From a virus, in the IMG/VR virus record IMGVR_UViG_3300031566_000014, positions 1 through 64,000 of that record: 64,000 bases of DNA; one strand, written 5' to 3'. Shown one piece after another: positions 36,077-57,585 of this stretch. Within the stretch, counting starts at the first letter, position 1. Each line of letters starts with the position of its first letter. Below the pieces are notes generated by a model. The model saw only the letters and a list, made by a program, of their open reading frames with translations. It ran no database searches and was not told the origin of the DNA. A program made the position numbers and the translations under genes.

Positions 36077-36083
36077 AGGACAG

Positions 36084-37403
36084 ATGCCACAGTACACCCC
36101 GGGGTCCACGTTCACACCGTCCCTGGACGCCGCTGGCGTTACCACGGTGAACGATGGGTACGCGTCGACCCTCATTCAAGCGATTACGTCGATCAACGCC
36201 GACGCTACGGCGGGCGCTCTCGCCACGACCTGGCCCACTATGCAGGTCCCTATCGAGAAGACCATCTGGGTCAGGAACGCCAAGCTCGGCCCGTGTCGGG
36301 TGCTGCTCGACAAGAAGCCGATGCGGCACATTGTCTCCCACGGGAGCAAGTACTTCTGGAAGGAACGGGTGATGATGCCTGAGCGGGACCGGCCGACCGG
36401 CTCGTTCAGCGCAGGCACCACGATGACCATCGCCGTCGGCAACGCCGGCATGTGGACGGTCAACGACATCTGCGTGGGCTTCTCGCCTCAGTTCCAGGGC
36501 TGGGTGACTACTACCCCGGCAAGCGGTGGCGCTGCGGGCAGCATCACCGTGTCGTGCGGCAACAACCCGCCCGCTACGGCGCTGAGCACGAGCACCATCC
36601 TGCTCCACATCGGCAGCACCCGCCGGGAACTGGCGATCCCCTACACCAAGCCCCGCACCCAGGAGACGCAGTTCGAGAACATCTACGCCTTCCCCGAGGA
36701 CTGGCTGATCATCTCCCGCAAGGAGGCCAACACGGTCGAGGACATCACCCTGCCCGTGGGCGGCCGCTGGGAAGGTGAGATGAATCTCCTGAAGGAGGAG
36801 CACCTCACCTGCAACGAAAAGATGATCCACTGGGGCATGTCGGACATCGACACGACCGGCTCGAATGCCGTGGGCTTCCTGGACGGGCTTTACAACCTGA
36901 CCACAACCCACATCTACGACGCCGCGACCACGGTGCCCAACATCAACAGCATCGAGCAGTTCCTCAGTGACTTCTGCGCGGAGTCCATCTCGCAGGAGGG
37001 GAACATTTTCGGCTTCACTGGCCGGCATCTGTTCCAGATTCTCTCGCAGCAGGCGTCCTCGAAGCTCCAGATCGTCAACCAAGACGAGACGATGTACGGG
37101 ATGCACGTCTCGAAGTACAGGGTGGCTGCGACGGGCGAGATCATCACGCTCATGTACCACCCGCTCTACACGCAACTGGACAACACCTTCGATGGGTATG
37201 CCCAGTTCGTGCGGATGAACCCCGAAGCCGTTGCCATGGTGTGGCACCGTGCGTATCCCGCGACGAAGCGGATCGACGCTGTGCTGCCCTACGGCCTCGA
37301 CGGGCTCATGGCAGGCTTCCGCAGCGCGTTCACCGTGATGGTGAAGGACGAGGCGCTGCACCTCGCAAAGATTGAGAACATCGGCCGGCCCACCATGTCC
37401 TAG
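36084..37403 (+). CDS. Major capsid protein (HK97 fold, SU10/DUF5309-like)
   Basis: 439 aa shell protein. The N-terminal arm (TFTPSLDAAGVTTVNDGYAS) precedes an E-loop-like region (VLLDKKPMRHIVSHGSKYFW), central GRWEGEMNLLKEEHLTCNEK and the helix SIEQFLSDFCAESISQEGNI, then GMHVSKYRVAATGEIITLMY and a closing TVMVKDEALHLAKIENIG. The KYxxxxGxIxLxxHPLYxQ arrangement is found in SU10-type capsid proteins. It follows portal and scaffold, and is flanked by RNA hairpins suggestive of expression control. Cysteine content and absence of a protease gene nearby are compatible with a non-cleaved shell. Confidence 0.85.
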   Translation: MPQYTPGSTFTPSLDAAGVTTVNDGYASTLIQAITSINADATAGALATTWPTMQVPIEKTIWVRNAKLGPCRVLLDKKPMRHIVSHGSKYFWKERVMMPERDRPTGSFSAGTTMTIAVGNAGMWTVNDICVGFSPQFQGWVTTTPASGGAAGSITVSCGNNPPATALSTSTILLHIGSTRRELAIPYTKPRTQETQFENIYAFPEDWLIISRKEANTVEDITLPVGGRWEGEMNLLKEEHLTCNEKMIHWGMSDIDTTGSNAVGFLDGLYNLTTTHIYDAATTVPNINSIEQFLSDFCAESISQEGNIFGFTGRHLFQILSQQASSKLQIVNQDETMYGMHVSKYRVAATGEIITLMYHPLYTQLDNTFDGYAQFVRMNPEAVAMVWHRAYPATKRIDAVLPYGLDGLMAGFRSAFTVMVKDEALHLAKIENIGRPTMS

Positions 37404-37432
37404 TGGCCGTGGTGAAGGACGGTAGGACTGTT

Positions 37433-37468
37433 GCGGGCCGGGCGGGCCTTCGGGTCTGCCCGGCCCGC
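37433..37468 (+). promoter_or_regulatory. Stable UUCG hairpin after the capsid gene
   Basis: GCGGGCCGGGC (37433-37443) pairs perfectly with GCCCGGCCCGC (37458-37468); the stem continues through GGGCC/GGTCT to a C-TTCG-G tetraloop, about 16 pairs. No U run follows, so it may act as an mRNA 3' protector or partial terminator that sets capsid dosage. Confidence 0.7.
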
Positions 37469-37491
37469 TCCACATCAGGAGATGATTCGAG

Positions 37492-38289
37492 ATGGCGAAG
37501 TCAACTGCCCAAGAGGGTGCTTCCGGCGATGCGGGCCTGAAGTCGCTGCCAGGGCTTCAAGAGATCCAGAACGCCGAGCCTGCCCCCGGCGGCGCGCGGA
37601 AGATCAGCAACGAAGCGGCCTCGGCGGCTCAGCACAAGATGGTGGCAGGCGCTCCGCTCCTGTCGCCCAAGCCGCCCGTGCTGGACTTCCGGCAGATGGA
37701 AGCGCAACTGTCGGCTATCAAGACGAAACTCGCCAACGGCGAGGAGCCGGACGACCTCGGCCAGGAGACGTGGCAGGCGGTGGGCCACGCGCAACTGAAG
37801 CTCGCCGTCATGCAGGGCGGCTTCACGCGCTTCGGCGGGCAGCAGATGCCCTACGCACCGATCACCATTGAGTTTGGGAAGCCGAGCGGCAACCCGCCAG
37901 AGATGTACGTCACGCCTGACTACTACACCGAGTGCGCCGCCGAAACGAACAAGCGCATCCTCGCGGGCGCTGCGGTTGACGACGCGGCGCTCGATGCCAA
38001 GGCGTTTGTGGCCTACAAGGTCGGCCTCATCAAGGAGCATCTGCGCAACGCGGCGTTCTACCACCCGCAGTACGCCGGCCGGCTGCGCTGCCCTGAGAAG
38101 GAAGCCGACCACCTCGAAGACGCCCAGATTCAGGCCGGCCTCGAAGCCATGGAGCGCAAGGCGAAGAAGGCAGGCAAGAAGATCGACGTGTCGGGCATCG
38201 CGGCGCAACTGGCGAAGATCGACCAGCCATTCGACGCCGAACACCCGAACATTCGGCCTGGGATGCAGATTCCGGGCATAGCGAGGTAG
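37492..38289 (+). CDS. Structural-module hypothetical protein, 265 aa
   Basis: ATG at 37492 after CAGGAGATGATTCG. Ala/Lys-rich start, then FRQMEAQLSAIKTKLANGEE and a beta-containing middle (QMPYAPITIEFGKPSGNPPE), helices, and HPNIRPGMQIPG at the end. No catalytic motif. Position after the capsid gene suggests a decoration or minor head protein. Confidence 0.74.
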   Translation: MAKSTAQEGASGDAGLKSLPGLQEIQNAEPAPGGARKISNEAASAAQHKMVAGAPLLSPKPPVLDFRQMEAQLSAIKTKLANGEEPDDLGQETWQAVGHAQLKLAVMQGGFTRFGGQQMPYAPITIEFGKPSGNPPEMYVTPDYYTECAAETNKRILAGAAVDDAALDAKAFVAYKVGLIKEHLRNAAFYHPQYAGRLRCPEKEADHLEDAQIQAGLEAMERKAKKAGKKIDVSGIAAQLAKIDQPFDAEHPNIRPGMQIPGIAR

Positions 38290-38295
38290 CCCACG

Positions 38296-38979
38296 ATGGC
38301 GAACGACACCTTCGGTGACATCATCCAGGCGTGCCTCGACTTCCTGCCTGGGCCGACGGATGACCGCACGGAGCGCATTCTGAAGCGCCAGATCAACATG
38401 GCGCACGGGAAGTTCGTCAACATGGCGCGTTGGTCGTTCCGCCGGCGCTCATGCGTGTTGGCGATCACGTCGAGCACTACGGCGGTGACGCTGCCCGACG
38501 GGACCACGGTTCTGGACACCGACGGCGCGACGCCAGACTACTGCGCCCTCGTCACGTCGGTAAGCCTTGGAAGCAGCGGACGGCCTCTGGATTTCAGGCC
38601 GCAGGAACTCGTGGCACGGGCTGGCGGGACAATGACGTTCCGTGGTCGTGGGATGCCGCAGTGGTGGGACGTGGTTCGGCGCACGCTGATCCTCATGCCC
38701 TATCCAGGTGCCGCCGACACGATCACCCTGTCCTACCTCGCGGGGCATTCGGACATGTCTGACGACGCGGACATCCCCATCATTCCTGCCGAGCACACCG
38801 ACGTACTCATCTGGGAGCCGCTGAAGTTCATGACGCTGGCTGGCGGCAACCCCGATCTGTACCCCTTGGCGAAAGATGAGGCGCGTCGGGCCGAGGAGAA
38901 TCTGAAGTACAACGGCGACGTGATCGGGCCTGAGTACTTCGCGCAGTTGAAAATCACCGGCCTAACGAATCGGGGATGA
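38296..38979 (+). CDS. Head-tail adaptor protein, 227 aa
   Basis: Connects portal to tail. ATG at 38296. The helix-rich start (DIIQACLDFLPGPTDDRTER, LKRQINMAHGKFVNMARWSF) followed by a beta domain (TLILMPYPGAADTITLSYLA) and terminal helix (KDEARRAEENLKYNGDVIGP) is characteristic of SU10/P22-type adaptors, in which 'Y.....L..D....AI.W..L' helices alternate with a sandwich. The IPAEHTDVLIWEPLKFMTLA segment matches that pattern. Location right before the tail-hub gene fits. Confidence 0.72.
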   Translation: MANDTFGDIIQACLDFLPGPTDDRTERILKRQINMAHGKFVNMARWSFRRRSCVLAITSSTTAVTLPDGTTVLDTDGATPDYCALVTSVSLGSSGRPLDFRPQELVARAGGTMTFRGRGMPQWWDVVRRTLILMPYPGAADTITLSYLAGHSDMSDDADIPIIPAEHTDVLIWEPLKFMTLAGGNPDLYPLAKDEARRAEENLKYNGDVIGPEYFAQLKITGLTNRG

Positions 38980-38980
38980 C

Positions 38981-41308
38981 ATGCCCCAGCCTGTGCAGCC
39001 ACTCTACTTGTCTGCCTCTGCCGCCAACGGCATGCGCGACCGCGCCGAGCGGGGCCAGGCCGGCTTCGGCGACAAGCTCGAGCTCCGCAACGTCGAGGTT
39101 CGAGACGGCAACTACACGACACGCCGGGCGTGGGCGAAGACGCTGACAGCCGCCGTCGCTGGCGTCTCGCGCTGGATCGGCGGCACATTCTACAGGGACA
39201 CGACGGGCGCGCCGCACTGGCTTCTGGCGGGTGACGACGGCTACCTCTACCACTGCGGCACCGAAGCGTTGACGGCTCTGACTCAGGTGACGGTCTACGC
39301 CGATAGCGCCGTGACGTGGGACGCCACGTATCGGGCGAAGTTCGCCCCGTGGCAGGATGATTGCTTCGTATGTGTCTCTCAGCCGAGCGAGATTGCCGAT
39401 GACGTGGCCGCGACGGCGCAGAATCTCCGCTACGACGGCATGTCCGACCCGCCGGCGGCATTCGGCGTGACGGTCGCCAGACCCGCGACGGAGCCTACCC
39501 TTGCCGATGGCGGGGCGGGGGCCGTCCCCTATGGCGAGTACTACTACAAGGTCACGTTCAAGGACGTGGACACGGGGTGGGAAAGCCCGGCGTGCGATGC
39601 CGTCAACATTGAACTGGCGAGGCCCGACGCGCCCTCGATAGCGAGTATGACGGCGACGCCCGTGGCTCCCGGCGCCCTCGCGGCAGGCTACTACCTCTAC
39701 GGCGTCACGTTCTATGAGGCAACGACGCTAGTCGAGTCCGTCATGGGGCCGACGATTGGCGTGGACGTTGCGGCTGCCGAGAACGTGGACTTGGCGGGCA
39801 TCCCCAGATGCGCCGAGACGGCGGGCACGTGGCATCGGCGCATCTGGCGGTCGAGCGGCGGCGGGGCCTTCTACCTGCTCGCCACGATAGCCGACAACAC
39901 CACCGAGACGATCACGGACAACACGCTGGCAGTGCCGCCGAGTGCGACGCTCTACGCCGCCGACACCACGGGCCGCAGGGTCAATCTCACTGTTGTCCCA
40001 ACCTACGCTGGCGCGGGAAGGGACATCCACCGCTGCATCTACCGCAGCGACGACGGCGGCCTGACCTACACCATGCTCGTGCCCGTTGGCAACGCGGACT
40101 CGATAGACGACAACACCACCACAACCTATGCCGACAACGATGAGGAAGCCACTGGCGACGTGTACACGCAGGTGTGGGCAGTGCCGCCGATGGCGTTTGT
40201 CGAGGTGTTTTCTGACGGGCAGGTGGCGTGGGCGAACGACCGCGGCAATGTGGTGCCCGCCGGCATCTACCCAGCGGATGGCCCGGACACGCCCGAGGGC
40301 CTTGCTCTGCTCATTGCGGAGTCTGGAGCGGCGTCGTTGGACCGCGCCTACGCGGGTTCACACAGCGAGCCAATTACGGCCTTCAAGGCGGCGCGCGACG
40401 TCATCTTCAGCGGCAAGACGCGCAGCATCTACTTGATGGGCCGCCGCTGCAAGACGGCAGACTGCCGACGGATCATCGAAGGCGTCGGGGTGGTGAACGA
40501 CGCCAGCGTGCAGGTGATCGACTCGCGCGTGGCCTTCCTGTCGCCCGAAGGCCCGCGACTCCTGACGCACTACTCGCAGGGCGACGTGATCTTCTGCGGG
40601 AGCGACCCTTACCGATTCGACTTGGCAACGACGTGGGATAGCGTGGTCAAGGCGCGACTGCCCTACGCCTTCAGTATCCACATCCCCGACCAGACGCTCG
40701 TGATCTGGTTCCTTCAGGCGTGTTCGTCGTGGCCTCTGACGCCGCCGCACAGCGACCTCGCCATCGTGTGGGACTACGGGGCGGCGAACGACGCCAATCC
40801 AGGCGGCAAGGTGTGGGTTTCAGATTACGTCGGGCTGGACTGCGCGTGGCAATACTACCCCGTGGGCAACGGAAGTCCGGTGCCGTATGTGGGCGCGGCA
40901 TTCGGCTGGGCGGGGAAGTTGCTAGGCGAGCGCACGGGCAACACGGCCTACGGCGACGGCACGACGGGAGCGCTGACGGGCCTGGTTACGTCCATTGCGG
41001 GCAACACTGTGGTGGTGCCCACGGCCGCCCTTGGTGGGAAGAACGTCATTGGCTCGCGGCTGTTCCCGACGCGCGGGACTGGCGGGCACATCGACGACAC
41101 GGAAGTGACTGTCTGCGATGGCCCGAACGAGTTGATCACGAGCCAATGCGGCGGGACGCTGACGACGGCCGGGGCGCTCGCGCTCGCGGCGGGCACGAAG
41201 TTCTGGATTGGGGGGTTTCAGGTAGTGGACCACGGGGTTGTGAACAACAGGCGCGACCCCGACAGCGTGACGATCTGGCAGAGTTTGCAGATTCAGAGAG
41301 CACCATGA
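38981..41308 (+). CDS. Tail nozzle/hub-like protein, 775 aa
   Basis: ATG at 38981, one base after the adaptor stop. Beta-rich all along. The N-terminus (LRNVEVRDGNYTTRRAWAKT) and the closing beta-propeller-like half (FVEVFSDGQVAWANDRGNVV, KAARDVIFSGKTRSIYLMGR, DASVQVIDSRVAFLSPEGPR) resemble nozzle/stabilisation proteins of short-tailed phages. Two fibronectin-like repeats, YYYKVTFKDVDTGWESPA and YYLYGVTFYEATTLVESV, lie in the middle. Such proteins form the tube below the adaptor. Identification rests on position and pattern. Confidence 0.7.
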   Translation: MPQPVQPLYLSASAANGMRDRAERGQAGFGDKLELRNVEVRDGNYTTRRAWAKTLTAAVAGVSRWIGGTFYRDTTGAPHWLLAGDDGYLYHCGTEALTALTQVTVYADSAVTWDATYRAKFAPWQDDCFVCVSQPSEIADDVAATAQNLRYDGMSDPPAAFGVTVARPATEPTLADGGAGAVPYGEYYYKVTFKDVDTGWESPACDAVNIELARPDAPSIASMTATPVAPGALAAGYYLYGVTFYEATTLVESVMGPTIGVDVAAAENVDLAGIPRCAETAGTWHRRIWRSSGGGAFYLLATIADNTTETITDNTLAVPPSATLYAADTTGRRVNLTVVPTYAGAGRDIHRCIYRSDDGGLTYTMLVPVGNADSIDDNTTTTYADNDEEATGDVYTQVWAVPPMAFVEVFSDGQVAWANDRGNVVPAGIYPADGPDTPEGLALLIAESGAASLDRAYAGSHSEPITAFKAARDVIFSGKTRSIYLMGRRCKTADCRRIIEGVGVVNDASVQVIDSRVAFLSPEGPRLLTHYSQGDVIFCGSDPYRFDLATTWDSVVKARLPYAFSIHIPDQTLVIWFLQACSSWPLTPPHSDLAIVWDYGAANDANPGGKVWVSDYVGLDCAWQYYPVGNGSPVPYVGAAFGWAGKLLGERTGNTAYGDGTTGALTGLVTSIAGNTVVVPTAALGGKNVIGSRLFPTRGTGGHIDDTEVTVCDGPNELITSQCGGTLTTAGALALAAGTKFWIGGFQVVDHGVVNNRRDPDSVTIWQSLQIQRAP

Positions 41309-42125: not shown

Positions 42126-43343
42126 ATGCGTGCCGAGTTTGCGGCGAAGATGATGTGGCTTGAGCCTGAAATCATCAAGCGGCGAAAGGGAAGGACAGCG
42201 GTTATCACGGCGGAAGGCCGTGGCGAGGTTGCCCGCGCCATCGCCACAACGGCGGCCATCCCGACGCCGAAGGGCGGCGTTGATTTCTACGTGCCATACG
42301 ACGGCACGGCGGCGAAGCACGACATGTGCGCCAAGGCCGTCGAGGACGGGATCATCGCGCAGATGATCCCGACGCCCGACCTGCCGCGCACGATGCGGCT
42401 GACGGCGCTTCTGCGGCACTACCGCGAGGTGTGGGACATGTGCTCCGTGGTTCCCGTCTGCCACGACCCCTACGGGCACATCCACATCGCGGCGGACTAC
42501 GGCGACCTGTACTACGGCTACCCGCAAGCCAACTGGCGGCTGAAGTATCTGGGGGAGCCGTGGTGGGAAATCGCGTGGCACGCGCTCGGGGTGCCTGTGG
42601 ACCCGAAGCTGCTGAAGCACGCCGCACCCGTGGGCCAGTGTTCGGCCATTGACGACGCCCTGCTGCCGCCGCCGCACCTGACGGGCAAGTGGGACGAGCG
42701 CTGCAAGGGCCAGGTGGAGAACTGGGAGAAGGTGGCGCTGCACGGGGTTCCGCGCTACGCGGTGATCTTGACGAGCGCGGGCGCTGGCAGCCAGGTCAAG
42801 TGCGCTCCGAAGGCCGTGTGGGACGCTATCGTGGGCCACTTGGGCCGACTCGGCGTGCGGTGCGTGCAGGTTGGCTTCAAGATGGACGGGCAGCCGGACG
42901 GCGACGTGATCGACCGCCGGGGTACGCGGCTTCCGCTTGTGAACCGTCTGCTTCAGGGTGCTCTCTGCTGCATCGCCAACGAGGGCTTCCTGCACTACAT
43001 GGCCTATGGCTTGCAGGTGCCCGCCGTAGCGCTCTACGGCCCGACGCCCATAGACGCCTACGGCTTGCCTGGGCATCTGCCGCTGATCCGTGGCGACGGC
43101 AAGGGGCACGCGGCCTGCCCGATGGGGACGTGCTTCTGGACGGCGCGCGAGAACTGGGGCCACGAGTGCATGATGGCAGGCGCCTACACCAGGGATGAGC
43201 AGGGCAATGAGCATCTCGTGAACCCGTGCGACAAGGTGTGCATCAACATGTCTGAGCCGGACGCTGCGGCGGGTGCCGTTGGGGAGTTCGTCATGGCCCT
43301 GATGGGCAAGTTCAAGGGCCGCGAGGAGGATGGGAAGGCATGA
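42126..43343 (+). CDS. GT9-like glycosyltransferase (heptosyltransferase fold), 405 aa
   Basis: GT-B enzyme expected to transfer a sugar from a nucleotide donor. ATG at 42126 after AAAGGAGACTC. The N-terminal Rossmann half (RTAVITAEGRGEVARAIATT, GGVDFYVPYDG) and the C-terminal half (YAVILTSAGAGSQVKCAPKA, then CCIANEGFLHYMAYGLQVPAVALYGPTP) correspond to the GT9 sites; the latter is the nucleotide-sugar loop where N-(D/E)-(S/G)-G-x-x-H-x-A is diagnostic. Several Cys in the terminal region. First gene of the glycan operon; no signal peptide. Confidence 0.78.
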   Translation: MRAEFAAKMMWLEPEIIKRRKGRTAVITAEGRGEVARAIATTAAIPTPKGGVDFYVPYDGTAAKHDMCAKAVEDGIIAQMIPTPDLPRTMRLTALLRHYREVWDMCSVVPVCHDPYGHIHIAADYGDLYYGYPQANWRLKYLGEPWWEIAWHALGVPVDPKLLKHAAPVGQCSAIDDALLPPPHLTGKWDERCKGQVENWEKVALHGVPRYAVILTSAGAGSQVKCAPKAVWDAIVGHLGRLGVRCVQVGFKMDGQPDGDVIDRRGTRLPLVNRLLQGALCCIANEGFLHYMAYGLQVPAVALYGPTPIDAYGLPGHLPLIRGDGKGHAACPMGTCFWTARENWGHECMMAGAYTRDEQGNEHLVNPCDKVCINMSEPDAAAGAVGEFVMALMGKFKGREEDGKA

Positions 43344-43639
43344 AGCCTGACCTGCCGGACATGGCGATAGAGGACGCGGCGCGCAGGGCGCTTGGCCTGC
43401 CGCCTATCGAGCGCCTAGCCATGCCTCCCGCCATTCTGCCCGACGCCGAGACGCAGCGTGAGAACCCGTGCGCCGGCTGCGAAATGGAGCAGCGAAACCT
43501 CCCGCAGTGCCAGCGCGACGCCGCCCACTGCATCTACGGCATGGGCAACAACCATCGCGGCTACTGGAACGGGCAGCTTCACAAGACGGCGCGCGGCAGG
43601 CGCAAGCCCGATGCGGACGGCCATGAAGAACGGACATAG
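43340..43639 (+). CDS. Small Cys-cluster protein, 99 aa
   Basis: ATG at 43340 (ATGA overlap). Helical start (MKPDLPDMAIEDAARRALGL), then NPCAGCEMEQRNLPQCQRDA and AHCIYGMGNNHRGYWNG: four Cys with the spacing CxxC-x9-C-x6-C. Between two glycosyltransferase genes. Possibly a metal or iron-sulfur accessory to the radical SAM enzyme that follows, but that is speculation. Confidence 0.72.
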   Translation: MKPDLPDMAIEDAARRALGLPPIERLAMPPAILPDAETQRENPCAGCEMEQRNLPQCQRDAAHCIYGMGNNHRGYWNGQLHKTARGRRKPDADGHEERT

Positions 43640-43642
43640 CGC

Positions 43643-44521
43643 ATGCCAACGCGGCGGGAACGAATCGCACAACGGCGGCAGGGCCGGAAAGGCGGGCACC
43701 TCGTCGTTGGCAAAGTGGTTGCCGAGTTCGGCTGGGAGTTGATGAGCATTGGCCCGTTGCGGTATTACGTGCACCAGCACGGCTTTGACAAGGTAACGGT
43801 TTGCACGAGGCCGGGCCGCGAGGCGCTGTACGCCGACTTCGCCACGGAGTTCAAGCCGCACGACATCCAGTGCGAGAGCGCCCTCATGTCGGGTTACAAA
43901 TTGGTGGACGGGAACCGTGTGGACTTGCCTGTTGAACGCCCGCGGATTCCCAACGCCGACGACTGGTATCGTCCGCAGACGTACAACGGAGGGCGTGCTG
44001 AATGGCGCGTCTACGGCGAAATGCGCGCAGAGCGGCTTGGCGTGACCGTGTTCCACGCTAGGAATCGCCCGCACTGCCCTGAGCGGAATTGGCCGGTGAA
44101 GAATTGGACTGCCCTAGCCGATAATCTGCGGAAGGCAAGTCTTGCGGAGAAGATCGTGTGCATCGGCACGCCAGAGGCGGCGGCGATGGTCCCTGGCTGT
44201 GATGATGCTCGTTCTGTTTCGTTGGCGGGCCAGATGGACATTTTACATTCGGCAGCCTATGCAGTGGGTGTGTCGAGCGGGCCGATGCACTTGGCGCAGC
44301 ATTGCAAGTGCCCTGTGGTGGTGTGGTGTGGTGGAGGGGCAGGTGAACAGGCGAATACGCAGCGCCGGTATAAAGAGGCGTGGAATCCTTTTCTTGTGCC
44401 ATTCATCGCCGTTCGGGAGGGTTCATGGCAGCCGCTTGTGAATGACGTTGTTGATTGGACAACGCAGTTTGGCGCCATGCTCAGTGCGCTAGAGGAGAAT
44501 GTGGCTATAGATGAACAATGA
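43643..44521 (+). CDS. GT9-like glycosyltransferase, 292 aa
   Basis: GT-B sugar transferase. ATG at 43643; weak ribosome site. The basic start (PTRRERIAQRRQGRKGG) leads to VVGKVVAEFGWELMSIGPLRYYV, a strand-loop-helix with the E-F-G-(W)-E-L type loop of phage-borne GTs; the C-terminal HSAAYAVGVSSGPMHLAQHCKCPVVVWCG is the nucleotide-sugar site (SSGxMHLA). Its relative at 49729 has the same E-F-G-(V)-Y-L start and PSSGYIHFA site. Less GC-biased codons than its flanks. Confidence 0.76.
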   Translation: MPTRRERIAQRRQGRKGGHLVVGKVVAEFGWELMSIGPLRYYVHQHGFDKVTVCTRPGREALYADFATEFKPHDIQCESALMSGYKLVDGNRVDLPVERPRIPNADDWYRPQTYNGGRAEWRVYGEMRAERLGVTVFHARNRPHCPERNWPVKNWTALADNLRKASLAEKIVCIGTPEAAAMVPGCDDARSVSLAGQMDILHSAAYAVGVSSGPMHLAQHCKCPVVVWCGGGAGEQANTQRRYKEAWNPFLVPFIAVREGSWQPLVNDVVDWTTQFGAMLSALEENVAIDEQ

Positions 44522-45185
44522 AACCCCAAGGTGCTACCTGACGCTTCGTTGCAATCTCAAGTGTTCCTACTGCTCCAACGGCCCGAGGCTGGCGGCCTAC
44601 AAGGAGATGAGCGCCTGTGAGTGGGACCAGATTCTCCACTGCCTGCCGGGCAAAGAGGTGGTGTTCACCGGCGGCGAGCCGACGCTCTACCCCGACTTCT
44701 ACGCCTTGGTCAACGGCCTGGTGCGCAGCGAGTACTACGTGAACGTCTACAGCAACTTCGCCCGGCCGCTGGACTTGGGGCGGCTGCCGCGCGGGCGCAT
44801 CCACTGGCGGGCTTCGTGCCACGCCCAGACGCCAGAGGACGGCCAGGACTGGTTGAAGAACGTCGAGGCGGCGCGGAACCGTGGCGACCTCGTGACCTGC
44901 ACGACCGTCCTGTGCCCCGGCGACGTGCTCGAAGTGCTGCGGCCCCACGAGGTCGTGGTGGACGCTCCGCAGGAGAAGCCCACCCCGCTGCCCGGCCCGG
45001 TGCGATGCACGCTTCCACGCCGCCTCATCGCGCCGGACGGGCGGCGGTTCCACTGCGTGGGGAAACTGGTGAGAGCCGATCCCACGGGCGTAGTGGGGCT
45101 GAGCGACCCCTGCGATACCGTCGTGTGCCAGACGCCAGATCAGTGCGCCAAGTGTGACTTCGCAAGCCGAAAGAGCCCAATGTGA
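44511..45185 (+). CDS. Radical SAM enzyme, 224 aa
   Basis: Iron-sulfur enzyme that generates a deoxyadenosyl radical. C14-x3-C18-x2-C21 (RCNLKCSYC) binds the 4Fe-4S cluster; VFTGGEPTLYPDF (residues 51-63) contains the GGEP motif that contacts SAM. The C-terminal third has extra Cys (FHCVGKLV, DPCDTVVC, DQCAKCDF), possibly an auxiliary cluster. At 224 aa it is a short version. ATG at 44511 overlaps the previous gene; the stop overlaps the next (GTGA). Context suggests sugar or peptide modification for the glycan; substrate unknown. Confidence 0.88.
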   Translation: MNNETPRCYLTLRCNLKCSYCSNGPRLAAYKEMSACEWDQILHCLPGKEVVFTGGEPTLYPDFYALVNGLVRSEYYVNVYSNFARPLDLGRLPRGRIHWRASCHAQTPEDGQDWLKNVEAARNRGDLVTCTTVLCPGDVLEVLRPHEVVVDAPQEKPTPLPGPVRCTLPRRLIAPDGRRFHCVGKLVRADPTGVVGLSDPCDTVVCQTPDQCAKCDFASRKSPM

Positions 45186-45715
45186 GCGTTGAAAAGGCCG
45201 AACAGGTTGTGTCCAGCATCGTTGCCGTTGTCGGCGATCAGGCGCATTCTCAGTCGTCTGTTGCCGATGGTCTTGCCAAGCAACTCGCCGGGCGCAGGTG
45301 GAACACCATCCTTGAGATTGGGACGTTGCGCGGGCTGTCCGCTGCCGTGCTGGCGTGCTTCGCAGAGAAGGTGTTCACGATTGACGTGGAGAATACTCCA
45401 GGAAGGTCCGATGTGTTCGGGGCACTGACGCGCGACATTCGCAATCGCATCTGCTCCATCATCGTGCCCGACAACGACGCGAAGGTGCTGCTGGTGCGGG
45501 CACTGTCCTTCGACTTCGCCTACATCGACGCGGGGCACACGGAGGGGCAGGTAGCCATCGACTTCAGTCTGACGCAGAAGTGCGGCGAGATGCTGTTCCA
45601 CGATTACCCTGCGTCTGGCTCCGGGGCGAATGGGGTCTCGCTGGTGCTGGACGCCCTCACCGAGGGGAAGGTGACGGCCTGCAAGCCCTTCGCGTGGTGG
45701 AGGGCGAAGGAATGA
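45182..45715 (+). CDS. Class I SAM methyltransferase (MT24-like), 177 aa
   Basis: GTG at 45182 (GTGA overlap). Motif I TILEIGTLRGLSAAVLA (about residues 41-57), acidic motif II FTIDVEN, and the metal-binding-like FAYIDAGHTEGQVAIDFSL with GEMLFHDYP: the pattern of methyltransf_24/O-methyltransferases that use D-x-x-H. Target probably a sugar hydroxyl in the operon's product. Overlaps the following gene by four bases. Confidence 0.8.
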   Translation: MSVEKAEQVVSSIVAVVGDQAHSQSSVADGLAKQLAGRRWNTILEIGTLRGLSAAVLACFAEKVFTIDVENTPGRSDVFGALTRDIRNRICSIIVPDNDAKVLLVRALSFDFAYIDAGHTEGQVAIDFSLTQKCGEMLFHDYPASGSGANGVSLVLDALTEGKVTACKPFAWWRAKE

Positions 45716-46929
45716 TCGTCCGCGTTGATGATTTCCCGCATGGCAAAGAAGGTTGCATGCAGCCGATAATGGACCATTGGGCCGTGTTATCGAGATTTCA
45801 GGATGCGGTGCGAGTTCCATTCTGTATCGGGATGATGACAGGACCGCTGTCTGACGATGAGAAGGAACGCCTACTGGCCTTTTCGGAAGACATCGAAGTC
45901 GCCTATCACGGGCACATGCACACGCACACGGATGGGGAAAAGCCCGATGAACTCAGGGCGGCGAAGCCGATGCTTGGCATAGACCCTGTATTCATCCCGC
46001 CCTACAACGCCCTCACGCAGAAGGCGGTGGATACCCTTGAGGCGGAGGGCTACCGCTACATCTGCACCGGGCCGGAGACGCCGGCTGGGTTGAAGGCGGA
46101 ATTTGCCAAGTTTGTTCCGTCGAAGTTCTACGGAACAGCGAAGGAGTTCCTGGCTCACGATCCTGACCTTCGGGCGTTTGATTGCATAACCCTGCATCTG
46201 ACGTGGGAGAACAATGACGACATGCGCAGCCTGCGCGAGTTGGGCGACGTCGTTGCCGGTGACGTATTCACATGGAAGACCTTCTTTGACGCCGCGCGCT
46301 ACAGGTTTCCAATAGTCCGAAAGGCGGTGGCGGACCTTGGCATGCACATGTGCCAGAAGATGACCTACGATTGGCTTTTGGACGCCGTTGACGTGCGTGG
46401 CCTGAAGGTATTGGATTTTGGGTGTTCTGATTACCCGCTGTCGAGTTTTCTAGCCGGCCTCGGCGCCCAAGCCTGGTGGTATGACAGGGATGCTGAGGCG
46501 TGCAAGATGCAGGCCAAACGCGCCAGCCAGGCCGGCGTTGCGACGCGCATGCTTGATGCCGATGCGGGTCCATTCGACCTCATTATCTTTTCCAATACTC
46601 TCCAGCACAACAAGGATGGCGCGCATGCGATTCTCGCATCAATGGTAGCTAGACTGAAGCCGGATGGCAGGGTGTTCATTGCGGAGAAACTGACTGGCCA
46701 AGCATCGAGGTGGGATGATGGCAGAAACGACCCATGCTGGATTCGGAACATGAAAGACCACAAGGCGCTGTGGCGAAGCGCTGGGCTTGTTCCATCCATG
46801 CGCCAACATCGGGAAGTCATAAGCTACTTGGTCTACTCATGGGAACGAGACACGGCAAACGAAGTTGGGGCGTGGACTGTTGAGACAGAAGCCGGCGAAG
46901 TGTGCGCCCTTTTGGAGCGCATCGCATGA
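45712..46929 (+). CDS. Polysaccharide deacetylase-methyltransferase fusion, 405 aa
   Basis: Two domains. Residues 1-205: NodB-like deacetylase; VRVDDFPHG gives the catalytic/metal DD (D6, D7), AYHGHMHTHTDG (65-75) gives the metal His set, FIPPYNALT the substrate loop, and LHLTW (161-165) the later His. Residues 210-405: SAM methyltransferase, motif I LKVLDFGCSDYPLSSFLAG, FDLIIFSNTLQHNKDGA as motif IV/post-I, DGRVFIAEKLTG. Upstream codons of the longer frame are shadow; start ATG 45712 after GGCGAAGGA. It may N-deacetylate a sugar and methylate it in one protein. Linked sequence is less GC-biased. Confidence 0.8.
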   Translation: MIVRVDDFPHGKEGCMQPIMDHWAVLSRFQDAVRVPFCIGMMTGPLSDDEKERLLAFSEDIEVAYHGHMHTHTDGEKPDELRAAKPMLGIDPVFIPPYNALTQKAVDTLEAEGYRYICTGPETPAGLKAEFAKFVPSKFYGTAKEFLAHDPDLRAFDCITLHLTWENNDDMRSLRELGDVVAGDVFTWKTFFDAARYRFPIVRKAVADLGMHMCQKMTYDWLLDAVDVRGLKVLDFGCSDYPLSSFLAGLGAQAWWYDRDAEACKMQAKRASQAGVATRMLDADAGPFDLIIFSNTLQHNKDGAHAILASMVARLKPDGRVFIAEKLTGQASRWDDGRNDPCWIRNMKDHKALWRSAGLVPSMRQHREVISYLVYSWERDTANEVGAWTVETEAGEVCALLERIA

Positions 46930-47912
46930 GAATCGTGTCGTGTTGTCGAGCTTATCCGACGTTCAACCCAGGCGGCATGGAAGCCGTGTGCCAAGTTCGC
47001 GCGGAAGAATTGGTTCGCCAGGGGCACGAGGTCCATGTAGTCACCGCCGGTGGCAAGGCTGCGAGCCTCGTCCATAATGGCGTGATGCTGCACTATACCG
47101 AAGGCCCGATGGCCAAGTATAGCCAAGCATACTCGGACGAATGCTACAAACTGGCATGTCAACTGCGGCCCGACGTGCTGCACCTAGACTCCTTCGATCA
47201 AGAGCGGTTGTGGTGGAAAGATCGGCCTGGTTCGCCGCGCCGAATCGCTATGACCTATCACGGGTTCGGGTGGCAACGTATCCTCACAGATTGGGCGATG
47301 TACCGCGATGGCGTGGATACGCATCCATGCAAGGTCGATCTGGACATGGTAGACAAGCAAGTGCGTGGCGTGAAGTCGTTCGATGTGGCGATCTCTATCA
47401 GCCTGTTCGAGCAATGGCAGATTCAGGACTTGTACGCGGTCGGGTCGCCGCTGGTCTACAACCCGATTGCCATCAGGTTCTTTGATGAACCGCCGGTTCC
47501 CGATAGACCCAAGCGTCCGTGGGTTGTGAATGGCAAGCGCTTTCCAGCAGTTGCGCAGAAAGTTGCCGAACGGGCCGGGATTCCCGTGATTCCCCTAAGC
47601 GGAATCAGGCCCGAGGACATGCCCAAGACCTACGATGGCGCAGCAGGGCTTGTGCTGCCAACCTACTTCTATATTGGGTTTGACTTGATGGTAGCTGAAT
47701 CGCTTGCTCGCCGCCGGCCCGTCGTGACGTTCGCGCTAGGAAGTTACTACTGGGCTGCCCGCATCTTTGAGGGCATTCATGCCGTGCTTCCCGGCGACAT
47801 TGAAGCCATGGGTGAGATGATATCGTCAGATCTGCCGCCTGTGCCTTCCGGGGTTGTCGATCAGTTTCGCCCAGAGCGGCATGTCAAGAACTGGGTGGAG
47901 GCCGTGCAATGA
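46926..47912 (+). CDS. GT4-family glycosyltransferase, 328 aa
   Basis: ATG at 46926 (ATGA overlap). RIVSCCRAYPTFNPGGMEAV is the N-terminal GT4 loop with P-G-G-M/E, then QGHEVHVVTAGG. The C-terminal half has YDGAAGLVLPTYFYIGFDLMVAESLARRRPVVTF: the E-x7-E-like GT4 motif (G-F-D-L-x-x-A-E-S-L-A). The donor is likely a nucleotide sugar. Short for a GT4 (usually 350-400 aa). Followed by an overlapping methyltransferase gene. Confidence 0.8.
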   Translation: MRIVSCCRAYPTFNPGGMEAVCQVRAEELVRQGHEVHVVTAGGKAASLVHNGVMLHYTEGPMAKYSQAYSDECYKLACQLRPDVLHLDSFDQERLWWKDRPGSPRRIAMTYHGFGWQRILTDWAMYRDGVDTHPCKVDLDMVDKQVRGVKSFDVAISISLFEQWQIQDLYAVGSPLVYNPIAIRFFDEPPVPDRPKRPWVVNGKRFPAVAQKVAERAGIPVIPLSGIRPEDMPKTYDGAAGLVLPTYFYIGFDLMVAESLARRRPVVTFALGSYYWAARIFEGIHAVLPGDIEAMGEMISSDLPPVPSGVVDQFRPERHVKNWVEAVQ

Positions 47913-48472
47913 GTTCAGCGAAGAACTGGGAGTTCCCTCATCGGATGTTGGCGTGCTATAGCCTGCTGCCTTGGGTCAACGAAGATTTCCCGCCATTGGT
48001 GCTCGATGCCTGCACGGCCTACGTGGACCCTCGATGTAAGCGCATTGCGGAGGAGCGCGGTTACAGGTTGCAGGGTTGCGACATCACTGCTGGGGACAAA
48101 CTGATTGACCTTGTGGACATCCAGCGTCTTCCCTACAAGGCTAGCCAATTCCGTGGTGTCGTGAGTTCGGACACGCTTGAGCATGTTCCCGACATGGACG
48201 TGGCTCTCCACGAGTTGCATCGCGTCACCGAGCCTGGCGGGTTTCTCGTCTTGTGTCTGCCTGTGTGCTTTCTGCCTGACGGCACAAAGCGCAAGAACAC
48301 GGAAAAGGCGGCGCCGAATCATCCTGCGCATCATTTGTGGAATCCTGGCATGGACATGGAGGCTCGCGTGATCAAGGTTGGCTACAGCCTTGTGGCTCGT
48401 CTTGAATGCGTTCGATGGGACAAGATGAAGACCTCGGCAATCTGGCTCATGGAGAAGCCGGTCACATCCTGA
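47909..48472 (+). CDS. SAM methyltransferase (MT11-like), 187 aa
   Basis: ATG at 47909 (ATGA overlap). VLDACTAYVDPRCKRIAEER stands at motif I but is altered from the usual G-x-G, LQGCDITAGDKLIDLVDIQR is motif II/III, and FRGVVSSDTLEHVPDMDVAL with HRVTEPGGFLVLCLPV are classic MT11 motifs IV-VI. The degenerate motif I makes activity less certain. Likely methylates a glycan or nucleotide sugar. Confidence 0.75.
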   Translation: MSSAKNWEFPHRMLACYSLLPWVNEDFPPLVLDACTAYVDPRCKRIAEERGYRLQGCDITAGDKLIDLVDIQRLPYKASQFRGVVSSDTLEHVPDMDVALHELHRVTEPGGFLVLCLPVCFLPDGTKRKNTEKAAPNHPAHHLWNPGMDMEARVIKVGYSLVARLECVRWDKMKTSAIWLMEKPVTS

Positions 48473-48486
48473 TTGGAGGCCGTCCA

Positions 48487-49098
48487 GTGACCTTCGATGA
48501 GATGTTCGCCATCTGCAAGCCGCACAGCGTCGTGAATCGTGAACGGATGATGGGCCTCTACGGAGCGGTGTGCCATGTTGACAAGCTGGGCATTCCTGGC
48601 GACATCGTTGAATGTGGATGTTTCAGAGGTGGCACTGCCGCGATGATGGCGCTCGCCAACGACTTCAAGCGCCACGTCTGGCTCTTTGACTCATGGGAGG
48701 GCATGCCGCCGCCTACCGCTGACGACCCGCCAGATGCGATGCATGGCACGAGCGGGTGTCGCGTGGATTGGGTGGAGGTCGTTAGCTTCCTTACGAGCGT
48801 CGGTGTGCTGCGCAACGGCACGATGGTAAAGGGCTGGTACAAGGACACCTTTCCAACGCACAAGATCAAGCAGATTGCCGTCCTGCATGTGGATTGCGAC
48901 TGGCATGACAGCGTGAAACTCTCTCTTGAGACCTTTTACGATCTCGTATCGCCCGGCGGTGTCATTCAGATTGACGACTACGGTCACTGGTCTGGAGCAC
49001 GCAAGGCGGTAGATGACTTCTTCAGGGCGCGCGCCATTGACCCGTGCTTGCACCCTCTGGACTACACCGGAGCTCAACACATCAAGGCGACCGCATGA
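48487..49098 (+). CDS. TylF-type O-methyltransferase, 203 aa
   Basis: GTG at 48487 eight bases after GGAGG. IPGDIVECGCFRGGTAAMMA is motif I, KRHVWLFDSWEGMPPPTADD the TylF D-S-(F/W)-(E)-G-(L/M)-P signature, and VLHVDCDWHDSVKLSLETFY with GVIQIDDYGHWSGARKAVDD the metal-dependent D-x-D...D-D-(Y)-G motif. Macrocin-O-methyltransferase relatives methylate deoxysugar hydroxyls. Length normal (about 220-250). High confidence in family. Confidence 0.88.
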   Translation: MTFDEMFAICKPHSVVNRERMMGLYGAVCHVDKLGIPGDIVECGCFRGGTAAMMALANDFKRHVWLFDSWEGMPPPTADDPPDAMHGTSGCRVDWVEVVSFLTSVGVLRNGTMVKGWYKDTFPTHKIKQIAVLHVDCDWHDSVKLSLETFYDLVSPGGVIQIDDYGHWSGARKAVDDFFRARAIDPCLHPLDYTGAQHIKATA

Positions 49099-49724
49099 CG
49101 CGCACAGACTACAGCCAGTGGGGCGAGCAGCAGATCATCCTCGACTTCTTCGGGGGCAAGGTCGGGCGCTTCCTCGACCTCGGTGCCTTCGACGGGTTGA
49201 CGGGCAGCAATGTGCGGGCGCTGGCTGAGGATGGCTGGTCGGGACTGTGCGTGGAGGCCAGCGCGATGACCTTCCCCTCGCTCCTTGAGAACATGGCCGA
49301 GTTCCACCGAGTCCAGTTGGTCAACGCGGCCGTCATGCCGCGCGCGGAGATCGTTCGTCTCTATGAGACCGGAAGCCAGATTTCCACCTGCATGCCGGGG
49401 CACAACGTCGGCAAGTGGGTGAAGGCATCCTACTGGGTGCCTGGGATCACGCCTGAGCAGATCGCGGAGACGTTCGGCGGGAACTTCGATTTCGTGTCCA
49501 TCGACATAGAGGGCATGGAGCTTCCGCTACTGTCCGCGATGGGGTCCACCCTCATCGAAGCCCAACTGGTCTGCGTGGAGGAGCGGATTCACAACGCACC
49601 GCGCGACGCGAGGTACGGCGACGCTCTCCTGGCGGCTCTGGCGCGGCACGGTTTTGTCCGCCAACTCGCCCGAACCAATCAGGGCAGCGGCAATCTCCTG
49701 TATGCCAAAGAAAAGGCGGTGTAG
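49095..49724 (+). CDS. FkbM-family methyltransferase, 209 aa
   Basis: ATG at 49095 (ATGA overlap). YSQWGEQQIILDFFGGKVGR then FLDLGAFDGLTGSNVRALAE (motif I), GWSGLCVEASAMTFPSLLEN (acidic E), and NFDFVSIDIEGMELPLLSAM, the FkbM I-D-(I/V)-E-G-x-E signature. These enzymes O-methylate sugars. Codons strongly GC-rich, unlike the next gene, hinting at separate origin. Confidence 0.88.
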   Translation: MTRTDYSQWGEQQIILDFFGGKVGRFLDLGAFDGLTGSNVRALAEDGWSGLCVEASAMTFPSLLENMAEFHRVQLVNAAVMPRAEIVRLYETGSQISTCMPGHNVGKWVKASYWVPGITPEQIAETFGGNFDFVSIDIEGMELPLLSAMGSTLIEAQLVCVEERIHNAPRDARYGDALLAALARHGFVRQLARTNQGSGNLLYAKEKAV

Positions 49725-49728
49725 CGCA

Positions 49729-50562
49729 ATGATCTTCGCAGGGCCATGGCTGGGCGAGTTCGGCGTCTATTTGGGCTGGATTGCAGGTGTTCGCTATCAT
49801 GCGCAGCTTACTCGTGTTCCTGTGACGGTGTGCGCTCGTCGTGGCTGGGAGTATCTCAGCGAGGATTTTCACGGTGATTACATTCCGCATAGCTTCGGCG
49901 GAATTGCCGTGGGGTCTGGTGTCAGATGTGGCACCGGGCCATCGAATGAGGCTGTCGCCGCTCTCATTCCGGCGGATGCCGACGTATTCGCTCCGGTTCA
50001 CACCTTCATGTTCGGCAACGTCTATGCCGAGCCTGTTGGCGACAAGCAGTTGTGGATCAAGTATGGGCGCACAATCTCTGGATGTGGCAATACCATCCTG
50101 TTTCATGCTCGCGCCAGGCAGGAATGGGGCGTCGCGCGTAACTGGCCTCAGCATAAGTGGGACGAGTTGGCGGATCGCTTCTCTTGTGGGCCGTGGCAAC
50201 TTGTCTCCGTTGGCACGCGGACAGCTTCCTTGCGGGTATCTGGTACAGAAGACCTGCGCGGCATACCGCTGCATGAGTTGGCAAACATTACGCGGTCATC
50301 TGCTCTGGCTGTTGGCCCATCAAGCGGCTACATACACTTTGCGGCGTTGTGTTGCTGTCCGCACGTACTCTGGTTTGGAGGAGACGACGGCTCACCATCG
50401 CAGGAGAATGACGAGGTCAAGATGCGCGTTCTGAATGAACGCTATCGAAGCGCGTGGAACCCATGGAACACTCCGGTCCACGTTATCGCTCAATCGGACT
50501 GGCAACCGAGCATTCCTCGTGTAGCAGCCGGCGTCCTATCCATGCTTACCGTGAGCGCATGA
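49729..50562 (+). CDS. GT9-like glycosyltransferase, 277 aa
   Basis: ATG at 49729. MIFAGPWLGEFGVYLGWIAG parallels the E-F-G-W-E-L start of the 43643 gene; the body has YGRTISGCGNTILFHARARQ and the nucleotide-sugar region RSSALAVGPSSGYIHFAALC with HVLWFGGDD. Same family, distant from its operon relative, so either an old duplication or separate acquisition. No signal peptide. Confidence 0.74.
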   Translation: MIFAGPWLGEFGVYLGWIAGVRYHAQLTRVPVTVCARRGWEYLSEDFHGDYIPHSFGGIAVGSGVRCGTGPSNEAVAALIPADADVFAPVHTFMFGNVYAEPVGDKQLWIKYGRTISGCGNTILFHARARQEWGVARNWPQHKWDELADRFSCGPWQLVSVGTRTASLRVSGTEDLRGIPLHELANITRSSALAVGPSSGYIHFAALCCCPHVLWFGGDDGSPSQENDEVKMRVLNERYRSAWNPWNTPVHVIAQSDWQPSIPRVAAGVLSMLTVSA

Positions 50563-50661
50563 CCAATGGGTAAATGATGCAACCAACCGAGGGGCGCTCA
50601 GTTGAGCGCGAATGACAGACGGCTTGAACGCATAAGCCGCAAACGGCAAGAGAGGAAGCAA

Positions 50662-51633
50662 ATGCCATATCCTCTGCGCGATGATACTCTATCGGGGATG
50701 CTGGGCATACCAGCGGCGATACCAGACAAAGGGCTGTCTCCACATGCAGTGCATGAGTCCAGCGCTGCGACGCCGGTTGTCGCTCCGCTTCGATTATTCT
50801 CAATGCGTGACCGCCGCCTCGAAGCGACGCGAGCGCTCGCCCGTGGACCGCTGCCCAACGAACGACCACCGCAAGGCCCAGGCGCATTCAGACCATCCTT
50901 CATGTCCAGCAAGACAATGGAAGGAATTGGGATAGGGATCATCACCTATTATGGTCTGGAAGACGTGCAGAAGGCCATTGATAGCATCTATGCAAATGGA
51001 GGGGAGAAGTACCACGTCGTTATCTTCGACAATACCGAGGACCAGAGCATTGGGGACTGGGTGATTGCCAATGCTCCTCTGGTGAAGTACATTCACAGCC
51101 CGCAGAACGTAGGTTGCTCGAACGCGCGCAACCGCCTTGCCGAAGTGTTCGCTGCCCTTGGTATCAGGCATTTCATCATCCAGGACCAGGACGTGGAGTG
51201 GCTTATTGACCCTGTACCTGAAATGCTGAAAGTGTTCACCGATTACCCAGACACCGGTCAGGTAACGGTACCACTCGCGATCCGGCAAATGCAAAGTGCT
51301 GACCCGGATTCGTGGGATGAATCTGGACTGCTGAAACTGCCTGAGACGCCTGGCATGTGCTGCATGTACAGCCTCGATTGCGTGGCTGGCATCGGCGGGT
51401 GGGAACCCACGATGTTCATGTTTCTGTTCGACACGCTGTTCAGCCTTCGGGCGAACCATGCTGGCTACAAGATTCGTACCATTCTGAATGAAGGCGACGT
51501 GGTAAAGCACGAACGCCGTGGTTCTGGCACAGGCAGGTATCCGCTCAAGATTCAGGAGCAGATGTGGTCTCGGCGGCGCTTCCGCGAAGTGATGGAGGCA
51601 GAAGGTATCCCTGCACCGTCCCGGTTCACGTAG
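50662..51633 (+). CDS. GT2-family (GT-A) glycosyltransferase, 323 aa
   Basis: ATG at 50662 follows GAGAGGAAG; an in-frame TTG at 50602 would add 20 basic residues (NDRRLERISRKRQERKQ). About 85 residues without known fold precede GIGIGIITYYGLEDVQKAID, a normal GT2 start, then YHVVIFDNTEDQSIGDWVIA, HSPQNVGCSNARNRLAEVF, and HFIIQDQDVEWLID, where DQD stands for the D-x-D metal motif. CMYSLDCVAGIGGWEPTMFM is the acceptor-side loop. The extra N-terminal part is unusual. Confidence 0.8.
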   Translation: MPYPLRDDTLSGMLGIPAAIPDKGLSPHAVHESSAATPVVAPLRLFSMRDRRLEATRALARGPLPNERPPQGPGAFRPSFMSSKTMEGIGIGIITYYGLEDVQKAIDSIYANGGEKYHVVIFDNTEDQSIGDWVIANAPLVKYIHSPQNVGCSNARNRLAEVFAALGIRHFIIQDQDVEWLIDPVPEMLKVFTDYPDTGQVTVPLAIRQMQSADPDSWDESGLLKLPETPGMCCMYSLDCVAGIGGWEPTMFMFLFDTLFSLRANHAGYKIRTILNEGDVVKHERRGSGTGRYPLKIQEQMWSRRRFREVMEAEGIPAPSRFT

Positions 51634-51646
51634 GTAGGATGCGATA

Positions 51647-52255
51647 GTGGGCACACCTGTCTGGAATCGTACCGGCGTGCCCACGCTGCGCTACTACTGG
51701 CGCCTGCTGCGCAACATTGCGAGCGTCGTCCTGCCGCGCAAGATCATCCTGATCGGCGATGGCGCCGTCAAGGAAGCGGAGCGCATCGTGTCCGGGTTCT
51801 CATTCCGGCCCAAGCGCTGCCCCAGGCCCAGCGATGTGCCACGGATTCTCGTCTTCTGCTCACGCGCCAGAGACTACGCGGAGGGCAATAGGGAGGTTGG
51901 CCGAAGCCCTGGGGTGTACCGAAGGGAGCGGCGCATCAACATCCGCTACATCGACATGCCGTGGCACGAGGCGATCCGCGAGTTGGTGGTTCCGCCGGTG
52001 AAGGATTCGCCTCACTGGGTTCCGTTTGTGGCTGGCGCGGTATTCCTGTTCGCGGACGGCGACTCGGCGCGGGCGCTGAGACGATTCAAGCTGATGAAGC
52101 CGCTGCTGGGCGACGGCACTCTGATTGTCGTCCCGCGCATCCAGGAGGAGGCGCAAGCCGAGACCGTGGAGATGCTGGGACGCCTGGGGTATGCCGGCAT
52201 CACATTGGGCGCGGTCGCTATGATGCGACGCGAAGCTGAAAGGGGCAGGGGATGA
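51647..52255 (+). CDS. Hypothetical protein, 202 aa
   Basis: GTG at 51647. A hydrophobic-basic N-terminal stretch (YYWRLLRNIASVVLPRKIIL) leads into a Rossmann-like alternation (IILIGDGAVKEAERIVSGFS, VPFVAGAVFLFADGDSARAL, GTLIVVPRIQEEAQAETVEM, LGYAGITLGAVAMMRREAER). Could be the last enzyme of the glycan operon, but no active-site motif is recognised. Confidence 0.72.
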   Translation: MGTPVWNRTGVPTLRYYWRLLRNIASVVLPRKIILIGDGAVKEAERIVSGFSFRPKRCPRPSDVPRILVFCSRARDYAEGNREVGRSPGVYRRERRINIRYIDMPWHEAIRELVVPPVKDSPHWVPFVAGAVFLFADGDSARALRRFKLMKPLLGDGTLIVVPRIQEEAQAETVEMLGRLGYAGITLGAVAMMRREAERGRG

Positions 52256-56703: not shown

Positions 56704-57585
56704 ATGCGCGTCTACCACAGACCCATCGAACGCTACACCCACGCCACGGGCTGGGTCTACATAGACCCCGATGCAGCGCCCAGCGTCATAACGCGGCCCG
56801 CAGGCGGCGGGGCTACCATCGAGACGCTCACCGGCGTCCGATACGCCACGGGTCTTTGGTTCATAACCATAACGGACGCGCTGTACTCTAGCGGCACTGA
56901 TTATGAAATGGTGTGGACCGTCACGATTGACGGCGACACCGGCGACGCGCCGCCAGAAATGTTCCGCCACGTCACCGCCGTCGTGTCCGGCGCGCCCACG
57001 GAAGCCGTCACCCTCAGCAGCCCGCGTCTCGCCGCTGGTGGAACGAGCGCTTCCTTCACACTTACCTTGCCCACAGACGCCAACCGCCATCACGTCCTGC
57101 TCCTGTGCATCCCGCGCACCACGGGCGGCGCCGCCATCGAGTCTACCTCGAGCACGACGGCCATAAGCAGCGGCACGCTCACGCCCGTCACAACCTACTA
57201 TGCCGTCGCCATCCCCGTGAGCGCCGACGGCAAGTACGGCCCCATCGCGCAGGGCAGCATCCGCAGCTTCACCACGCTCGGCACGACGCACGCCTACTCC
57301 AAGCCCGACGAGACGGCACCAGACGCCTGCCTGGTCATCAACACGCGCGTCAACGACTACGACTCCTTCCAAGCCGACGGCCCGCACTACCGCGACCTCG
57401 CCGACGTGGACGGCTCCCAGAGCATCCAAGTCGGCAACGACATCCGCGCCGTCGGGCAGGGCCGCAACTTCGAGTACCGCTTGACCTGTTGCGACCCCGT
57501 GGTGTTCCGCGAGCGCGGCATCGTCTTCCGCATGCGCCAGCGCGACGAAGGGCCGCGCGGCACGCAGGAGAGGAGCAAGGCGTAA
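56704..57585 (+). CDS. Tail-associated protein with fibronectin-like domain, 293 aa
   Basis: ATG at 56704. Beta-rich: ATGWVYIDPDAAPSVITRPA, ATGLWFITITDALYSSGTDY (an Ig-like sandwich), then a fibronectin III-type segment (VTTYYAVAIPVSADGKYGPI). C-terminal QSIQVGNDIRAVGQGRNFEY and Arg-rich tail. Its 3' end abuts the fibre-like gene. Confidence 0.74.
   Translation: MRVYHRPIERYTHATGWVYIDPDAAPSVITRPAGGGATIETLTGVRYATGLWFITITDALYSSGTDYEMVWTVTIDGDTGDAPPEMFRHVTAVVSGAPTEAVTLSSPRLAAGGTSASFTLTLPTDANRHHVLLLCIPRTTGGAAIESTSSTTAISSGTLTPVTTYYAVAIPVSADGKYGPIAQGSIRSFTTLGTTHAYSKPDETAPDACLVINTRVNDYDSFQADGPHYRDLADVDGSQSIQVGNDIRAVGQGRNFEYRLTCCDPVVFRERGIVFRMRQRDEGPRGTQERSKA

Follow-up and report, generated by a model that had tools for sequence, protein, structure and literature searches.

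A candidate glycan-modification cassette among the virion genes of an SU10-like phage

Why would a tailed phage carry a run of glycosyltransferase (GT) and methyltransferase genes in the midst of its virion genes, and to what would the resulting glycan be attached? These questions are raised by a 64,000-nt stretch of DNA (hereafter, the window) that belongs to a linear virus record of 78,510 bases. Its upstream virion module (30348..41308, + strand) encodes TerL, a portal protein, a probable MCP (36084-37403, +), an SU10-type adaptor (38296-38979, +; E 1.5e-13), and, as its last gene, a large tail protein (38981-41308, +). The cassette lies between these tail genes and the spike genes, all on the same strand. 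Downstream of it are a LamG-type spike, more tail-like proteins, a Ser/Trp-repeat protein, and a 697-aa protein (58972-61065). The adaptor, together with a distant (weak) match to an SU10-type portal, identifies the phage as SU10-like.

No nucleotide similarity to cultured phages was found by megablast, and TerL and the 697-aa protein have only short partial tblastn matches in cultured phages. Single-protein scans of viral contigs recovered no relatives of the MCP, TerL, the first cassette protein (42126-43343), or the 697-aa protein. Other families in the rest of the record include Mom, ERF, RusA, HNH, and AAA. Two tRNA-Met (CAT) genes (28376-28449 and 29118-29193, +) are found near each other, shortly before the packaging genes. 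Past the spike genes, a 2525-aa ORF at record positions 65063-72640 possibly encodes an internal or ejected virion protein.

Gene content of the cassette

The twelve adjacent genes described in an earlier note are present at 42126-52255 on the + strand, and become thirteen open reading frames (ORFs) if a 99-aa ORF is counted. The description of them as mostly overlapping stop to start also holds. Eight of 12 junctions overlap: six by 4 nt, one by 11 nt, and one by 67 nt (if the TylF gene starts at 48406). The others are gaps of 3, 4, and 13 nt and a 339-nt gap before the GT2 gene. This last gap (50563-50901) contains no clear gene or Rfam match.

The cassette opens with a weak GT9-like gene (GT9a, 405 aa, 42126..43343; Pfam GT9 E 0.008, below the cutoff), the Cys-containing 99-aa ORF (43340..43639, from the ORF list), and GT9b (43643..44521; Pfam GT9 E 6e-5, above the cutoff). 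These are followed by a radical SAM protein (44511..45185; Pfam 1e-11) with CxxxCxxC and GGEP motifs and a Cys-rich C terminus, an MT24-type class I methyltransferase (45182..45715; Pfam 5e-6), and a fusion of N-terminal deacetylase-like motifs with a C-terminal MT23/11 domain (45712..46929; Pfam 4e-12, C-terminal half only). Next are a GT4-type glycosyltransferase (46926..47912; Pfam 1e-8), an MT11-type protein (47909..48472; Pfam 8e-10 over the profile's C-terminal half), a TylF-family O-methyltransferase (48406..49098, start perhaps at 48487; Pfam 8e-39), and an FkbM-family methyltransferase (49095..49724; Pfam 1.5e-6; NCBIfam TIGR01444 1e-11, above the cutoff). GT9c (49729..50562) reaches only E 0.3 with Pfam alone. 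It is 32% identical to GT9b (E 4e-31), of which it is an older paralogue. The GT2 glycosyltransferase (50902..51633; Pfam 1e-9) has a DxD motif and an orthologue in a sister phage, L081 (36% identity; BLAST 9e-43). The final ORF (51647..52255) has no Pfam match, and a BLAST match of 3e-5 over 64 aa to L081 positions 19810-20367. It is possibly a degenerate MT24-like Rossmann protein.

The GT4, GT2, radical SAM, MT24, MT11, TylF, and FkbM assignments all stand at the family level in searches with Pfam, NCBIfam, and PHROGs. Five proteins of the cassette are of methyltransferase type. NovP- and MycF-type structures match the TylF protein (E 1e-17 to 1e-24), which retains the metal-site D.D and DD. 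In characterized pathways, TylF and FkbM enzymes act as sugar methyltransferases. The deacetylase previously read in the fusion protein fared less well: Pfam, NCBIfam, and PDB searches returned no deacetylase match, and a CE4/NodB profile or structural match was not found for the N-terminal part of 45712-46929, leaving DDF and HGHMH motifs only. Furthermore, in a motif scan, SAM motif I of the MT11 protein is absent or degenerate, and, by sequence reading, the first Glu of EX7E is not conserved in the GT4 protein. It is therefore not certain that all enzymes of the cassette are active.

The EFGWEL glycosyltransferases and the age of the cassette

Three GT9-like genes had been counted in the cassette. 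Two are true paralogues (GT9b and GT9c), and the third, GT9a, is weak, with no BLAST match to GT9b and no match to the subfamily HMM. The AlphaFold model of GT9b (pLDDT 84, pTM 0.84) has GT9, WaaC, WaaF, and TibC as its best PDB folds, and viral GT9 predictions match too. The model thus predicts a GT-B fold with the C-terminal nucleotide site of GT9, and GT9c is a predicted GT9 through its homology to GT9b. Both belong to a subfamily with the signature EFGWEL...RY..WNP, consisting of an N-terminal GPWVGEFGWEL and a C-terminal RY..WNP. EFG, R140, SSGPxH, and RY..WNP are invariant or nearly so in the subfamily alignment.

An alignment of the two window copies of this EFGWEL subfamily recovered 65 viral loci, and a wider alignment recovered at least 140 viral contigs versus 12 loci across 84,980 species genomes of bacteria and archaea (a rough ratio, as the peptide patterns were slightly unlike). 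Among 50,697 phage records, tblastn with GT9b and a viral GT9 homologue gave no match; the TylF protein likewise had no tblastn match in cultured phages. Full-length subfamily members score above 200 bits and occur in 2 of 289 genomes of the searched bacterial phylum, both already known. Ordinary GT9s of that phylum mostly match the C-terminal half of the model, with up to 42 bits. An EFGWEL GT9, rare in bacterial genomes, could thus serve as a marker of candidate virion- or host-modifying cassettes. None of 114 loci matched by the subfamily HMM carries two members, which makes the GT9b/GT9c pair unusual.

The nearest bacterial relatives of the window copies in the tree (L069-L078) are from PVC-group MAGs, a possible hint, from phylogenetic placement, as to the host. 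When 388 genomes from the phylum of these PVC-group members were searched for the portal, a single marginal match (7.9e-4) resulted.

Evidence on the age of the cassette comes from L081, a section of a 53-kb contig from an SU10-like phage, with matches to the SU10 portal and MCP. Its TerL, portal, capsid, adaptor, and tail proteins are 23 to 32% identical to those of the window (capsid, 23%) and are encoded in the same order. Directly after the tail genes, at the position of the window cassette, L081 has MT24-GT9-GT4-GT2, followed by spike genes, one of which is homologous to 56704-57585. The MT24 gene precedes GT9 there, and the GT9 is 40% identical to its window counterpart, GT9b. This synteny in so distant a sister phage indicates that the four-gene core is old, and its retention despite capsid divergence to 23% identity suggests lasting selection. 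In the tree, GT9b joins the L081 copy (support 100/96) and GT9c falls just outside (99/94). Thus, the duplication predates the split from L081, and the second copy may have been lost in L081 or may lie outside its examined part.

The eight cassette genes other than the core and 51647-52255 were not found at the corresponding position of L081. Judging by gene content, these extra enzymes may be expansions in the window lineage or losses in that of L081. The piecemeal acquisition proposed earlier therefore does not describe the core, which is old and syntenic, nor a GT9 that arose by old duplication; only the extra genes look later.

Candidate targets of the glycan

The earlier note had proposed that the phage builds an oligosaccharide and methylates it, on its virion or on the host surface. 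Assembly and methylation are well supported by the enzyme content; between the two surfaces, we favor the virion, with a putative acceptor. We put a probability of roughly 0.55 on the cassette being a late virion-module operon that modifies virion proteins with a methylated oligosaccharide. Host-made sugar nucleotides would feed cytoplasmic GTs, of which the GT9b/GT9c pair, GT4, and GT2 would probably start or extend the oligosaccharide. The chain might be attached to residues of the phage's capsid, tail, or spike proteins before or during assembly. The TylF, FkbM, MT24, and other methyltransferases would then O-methylate the chain, and the radical SAM protein, perhaps along with the deacetylase-like domain, might alter the sugar or the acceptor. 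Such a modification could shield the phage from host receptors or immunity.

A virion target is favored by the position of the cassette, by the same position in the sister phage, and by the lone GT9 genes that follow the portal gene in related phages. An SU10-type portal is present in 7 of 50 virus records carrying the GT9 (weakly in the window record), and in three of these (L065, L015, and L086) GT9 comes immediately after the portal gene, no more than a few hundred bases away. A probable capsid gene lies ~1 kb past GT9 in L065, with no other sugar gene recognized between. These three form one clade in the tree and so represent one event, which weakens this line of evidence. The partly degenerate look of MT11 and GT4 also counts against the virion reading. 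The virion reading is also favored because no cluster protein has a transmembrane segment and because no sugar-nucleotide synthesis, Wzx/Wzy flippase/polymerase, or base-hydroxymethylation families were recognized in the record. The GT9 fold includes TibC, a protein O-heptosyltransferase, which points the same way, as does the precedent of mycobacteriophage Corndog.

Neighborhoods of the subfamily GT9 in other phages fit a glycan pathway: in many, it is beside GDP-mannose dehydratase, UDP-glucose dehydrogenase, PfkB, and cytidylyltransferase genes. Radical SAM genes adjoin GT9 in L053/L054/L061, L091, L099, and L080, and in L065 and L086 they lie 6-7 kb upstream of it; once redundancy is taken into account, this clustering is no more than suggestive. 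In L099, a GT8-GT9 fusion and a radical SAM gene occur together with a homologue of the 697-aa protein (39%). At L099 2904-7017, the fusion is followed by a radical SAM/SPASM frame seemingly split over two ORFs, the second of which runs on into a GT9-like domain. A strict TylF DNA pattern had no match in viral contigs. One TylF neighbor (L003) was considered as a relative of the cassette and rejected: it has sugar genes, but no common cluster.

Alternatively, late in infection the enzymes might modify a glycan of the host envelope (LOS core, O-antigen, or capsule precursors), so that the receptor is altered and superinfection or the re-adsorption of progeny is prevented. We regard this as the main rival, though less likely than the virion reading. 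LPS heptosyltransferases belong to GT9, and the GT9b fold is as similar to WaaC and WaaF, both among its best matches, as to TibC. GT4, GT2, TylF, and FkbM enzymes are frequent, too, in loci for O-antigen and capsule. Some bacterial subfamily members, read by eye, adjoin a flippase-like gene, GTs, sulfotransferases, and an epimerase, a surface-polysaccharide-like neighborhood, and the nucleotide-sugar genes beside many phage relatives could be read in the same way. Host modification is also the explanation favored by the authors of a pelagimyophage study for GTs of the tail-fiber region (PMC7029224). The fold resemblance, the shared enzyme families, and the bacterial neighborhoods weaken the virion reading. 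However, no initiating transferase, flippase, polymerase, O-acetyltransferase, or membrane protein was recognized in the cassette, which in two distant phages sits inside the structural operon, and the lone GT9 follows the portal in three others.

A candidate acceptor is encoded in the virion region itself. The repeat protein at 57585..58961 (+) has a 187-aa SGFSSPW/SGWSG core with 59 Ser and 20 Trp. The gene for the 697-aa protein (58972..61065, +) begins 10 bp past it, outside the span of the earlier note, and this adjacency also favors the virion reading. The 697-aa protein has a DUF115-like domain, a GT-A-like domain with DLD, and an MT24 methyltransferase domain (Pfam MT24 3e-10, MptE-like 0.001; PHROG 4603 9e-8), and is probably a component of the cassette's machinery. 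Its AlphaFold model is poor (pLDDT 52) and too weak to use. Homologues of neither protein are in the L081 stretch examined. A self-contained protein O-glycosylation system, in which the DUF115/GT/MT protein and the GT9s place a multiply O-methylated, radical-SAM-altered chain on the Ser/aromatic repeats, seems unlikely in this exact form. If it were true, EFGWEL GT9s would be widespread virion-glycosylating enzymes of uncultured phages.

It is similarly improbable that the cassette is variable cargo without a single product, its enzymes gained independently, some decaying, and with varied substrates. Third-position GC content (GC3) is lower in the cassette than in the virion genes (0.74 versus 0.82, P = 0.010) and more variable (Levene test, P = 0.006). 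This heterogeneity would fit such cargo, as would the degenerate MT11 and GT4 motifs and the extra genes not seen in L081. Codon use had also been thought to alternate between genes; GC3 is heterogeneous but, with a lag-1 autocorrelation of 0.03, does not alternate. GC3 of the L081 cassette is like that of its own genome. Tight overlapping junctions, a core retained over deep divergence, and a maintained duplicate GT9 pair all argue against independent cargo.

Glycosylation of hypermodified DNA bases as an anti-restriction measure is very unlikely: phage GTs that act on DNA are well known, and this phage has a Mom-family DNA modification protein (13418-14194, -; PF25680, E 5e-19), but Mom is an alternative modification route, no dCMP hydroxymethylase, thymidylate-synthase-like protein, or base hydroxylase is among the 72 other predicted proteins (of a perhaps incomplete record), and neither several sugar-type methyltransferases nor the late-operon location fits. 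A doubtful tRNA-Gly, unconfirmed by Rfam, was predicted within the Mom ORF (13439-13513).

Comparison with known systems

To our knowledge, there are few cultured examples of virion glycosylation in tailed phages. The window phage resembles SU10 in its adaptor and, distantly, its portal, but its virion proteins are very divergent. WaaC, WaaF, and TibC share with the window GT9s a GT-B fold and a C-terminal SSGPxH nucleotide-site motif, but at 12-15% identity; the window proteins have their own GPWVGEFGWEL and RY..WNP signatures. The TylF-family protein resembles MycF and NovP, with the metal-site Asp kept, and is here phage-encoded. Unlike O-antigen and capsule conversion cassettes, this one has no membrane GT, flippase, polymerase, or acetyltransferase family.

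The hypervariable tail-fiber region of pelagimyophages likewise places GTs near fiber genes of uncultured phages (PMC7029224). Those GTs are GT8-rich, are accompanied by sugar-synthesis genes, belong to myophages, and have been read as modifying O-chains; methyltransferases are unmentioned in the main text of that study.

Closer is Corndog, in which an O-methyltransferase (gp35) and GTs (gp36-38) lie between the portal and protease genes (PMC4351075). For Corndog-type (cluster O) mycobacteriophages, the capsid and tail tube are reported to be modified (PMC11600133, PMC12619734). With tblastn, GT9b, the TylF protein, and the 697-aa protein had no mycobacteriophage match in the phage collection. 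What is shared is an O-methyltransferase and several GTs inside a virion gene module. The Corndog set is far simpler than the thirteen ORFs found here, with their GT9, GT4, and GT2 enzymes, radical SAM protein, TylF, FkbM, and deacetylase-like fusion. Here, moreover, the phage is SU10-like, the cassette follows a tail gene instead of lying between portal and protease, and the acceptor is putative. L081, as a small four-gene version of the cassette, is directly expressible and testable. The locus is best filed as a phage glycan-modification cassette, rather than as proven virion glycosylation, with Corndog as the closest described case.
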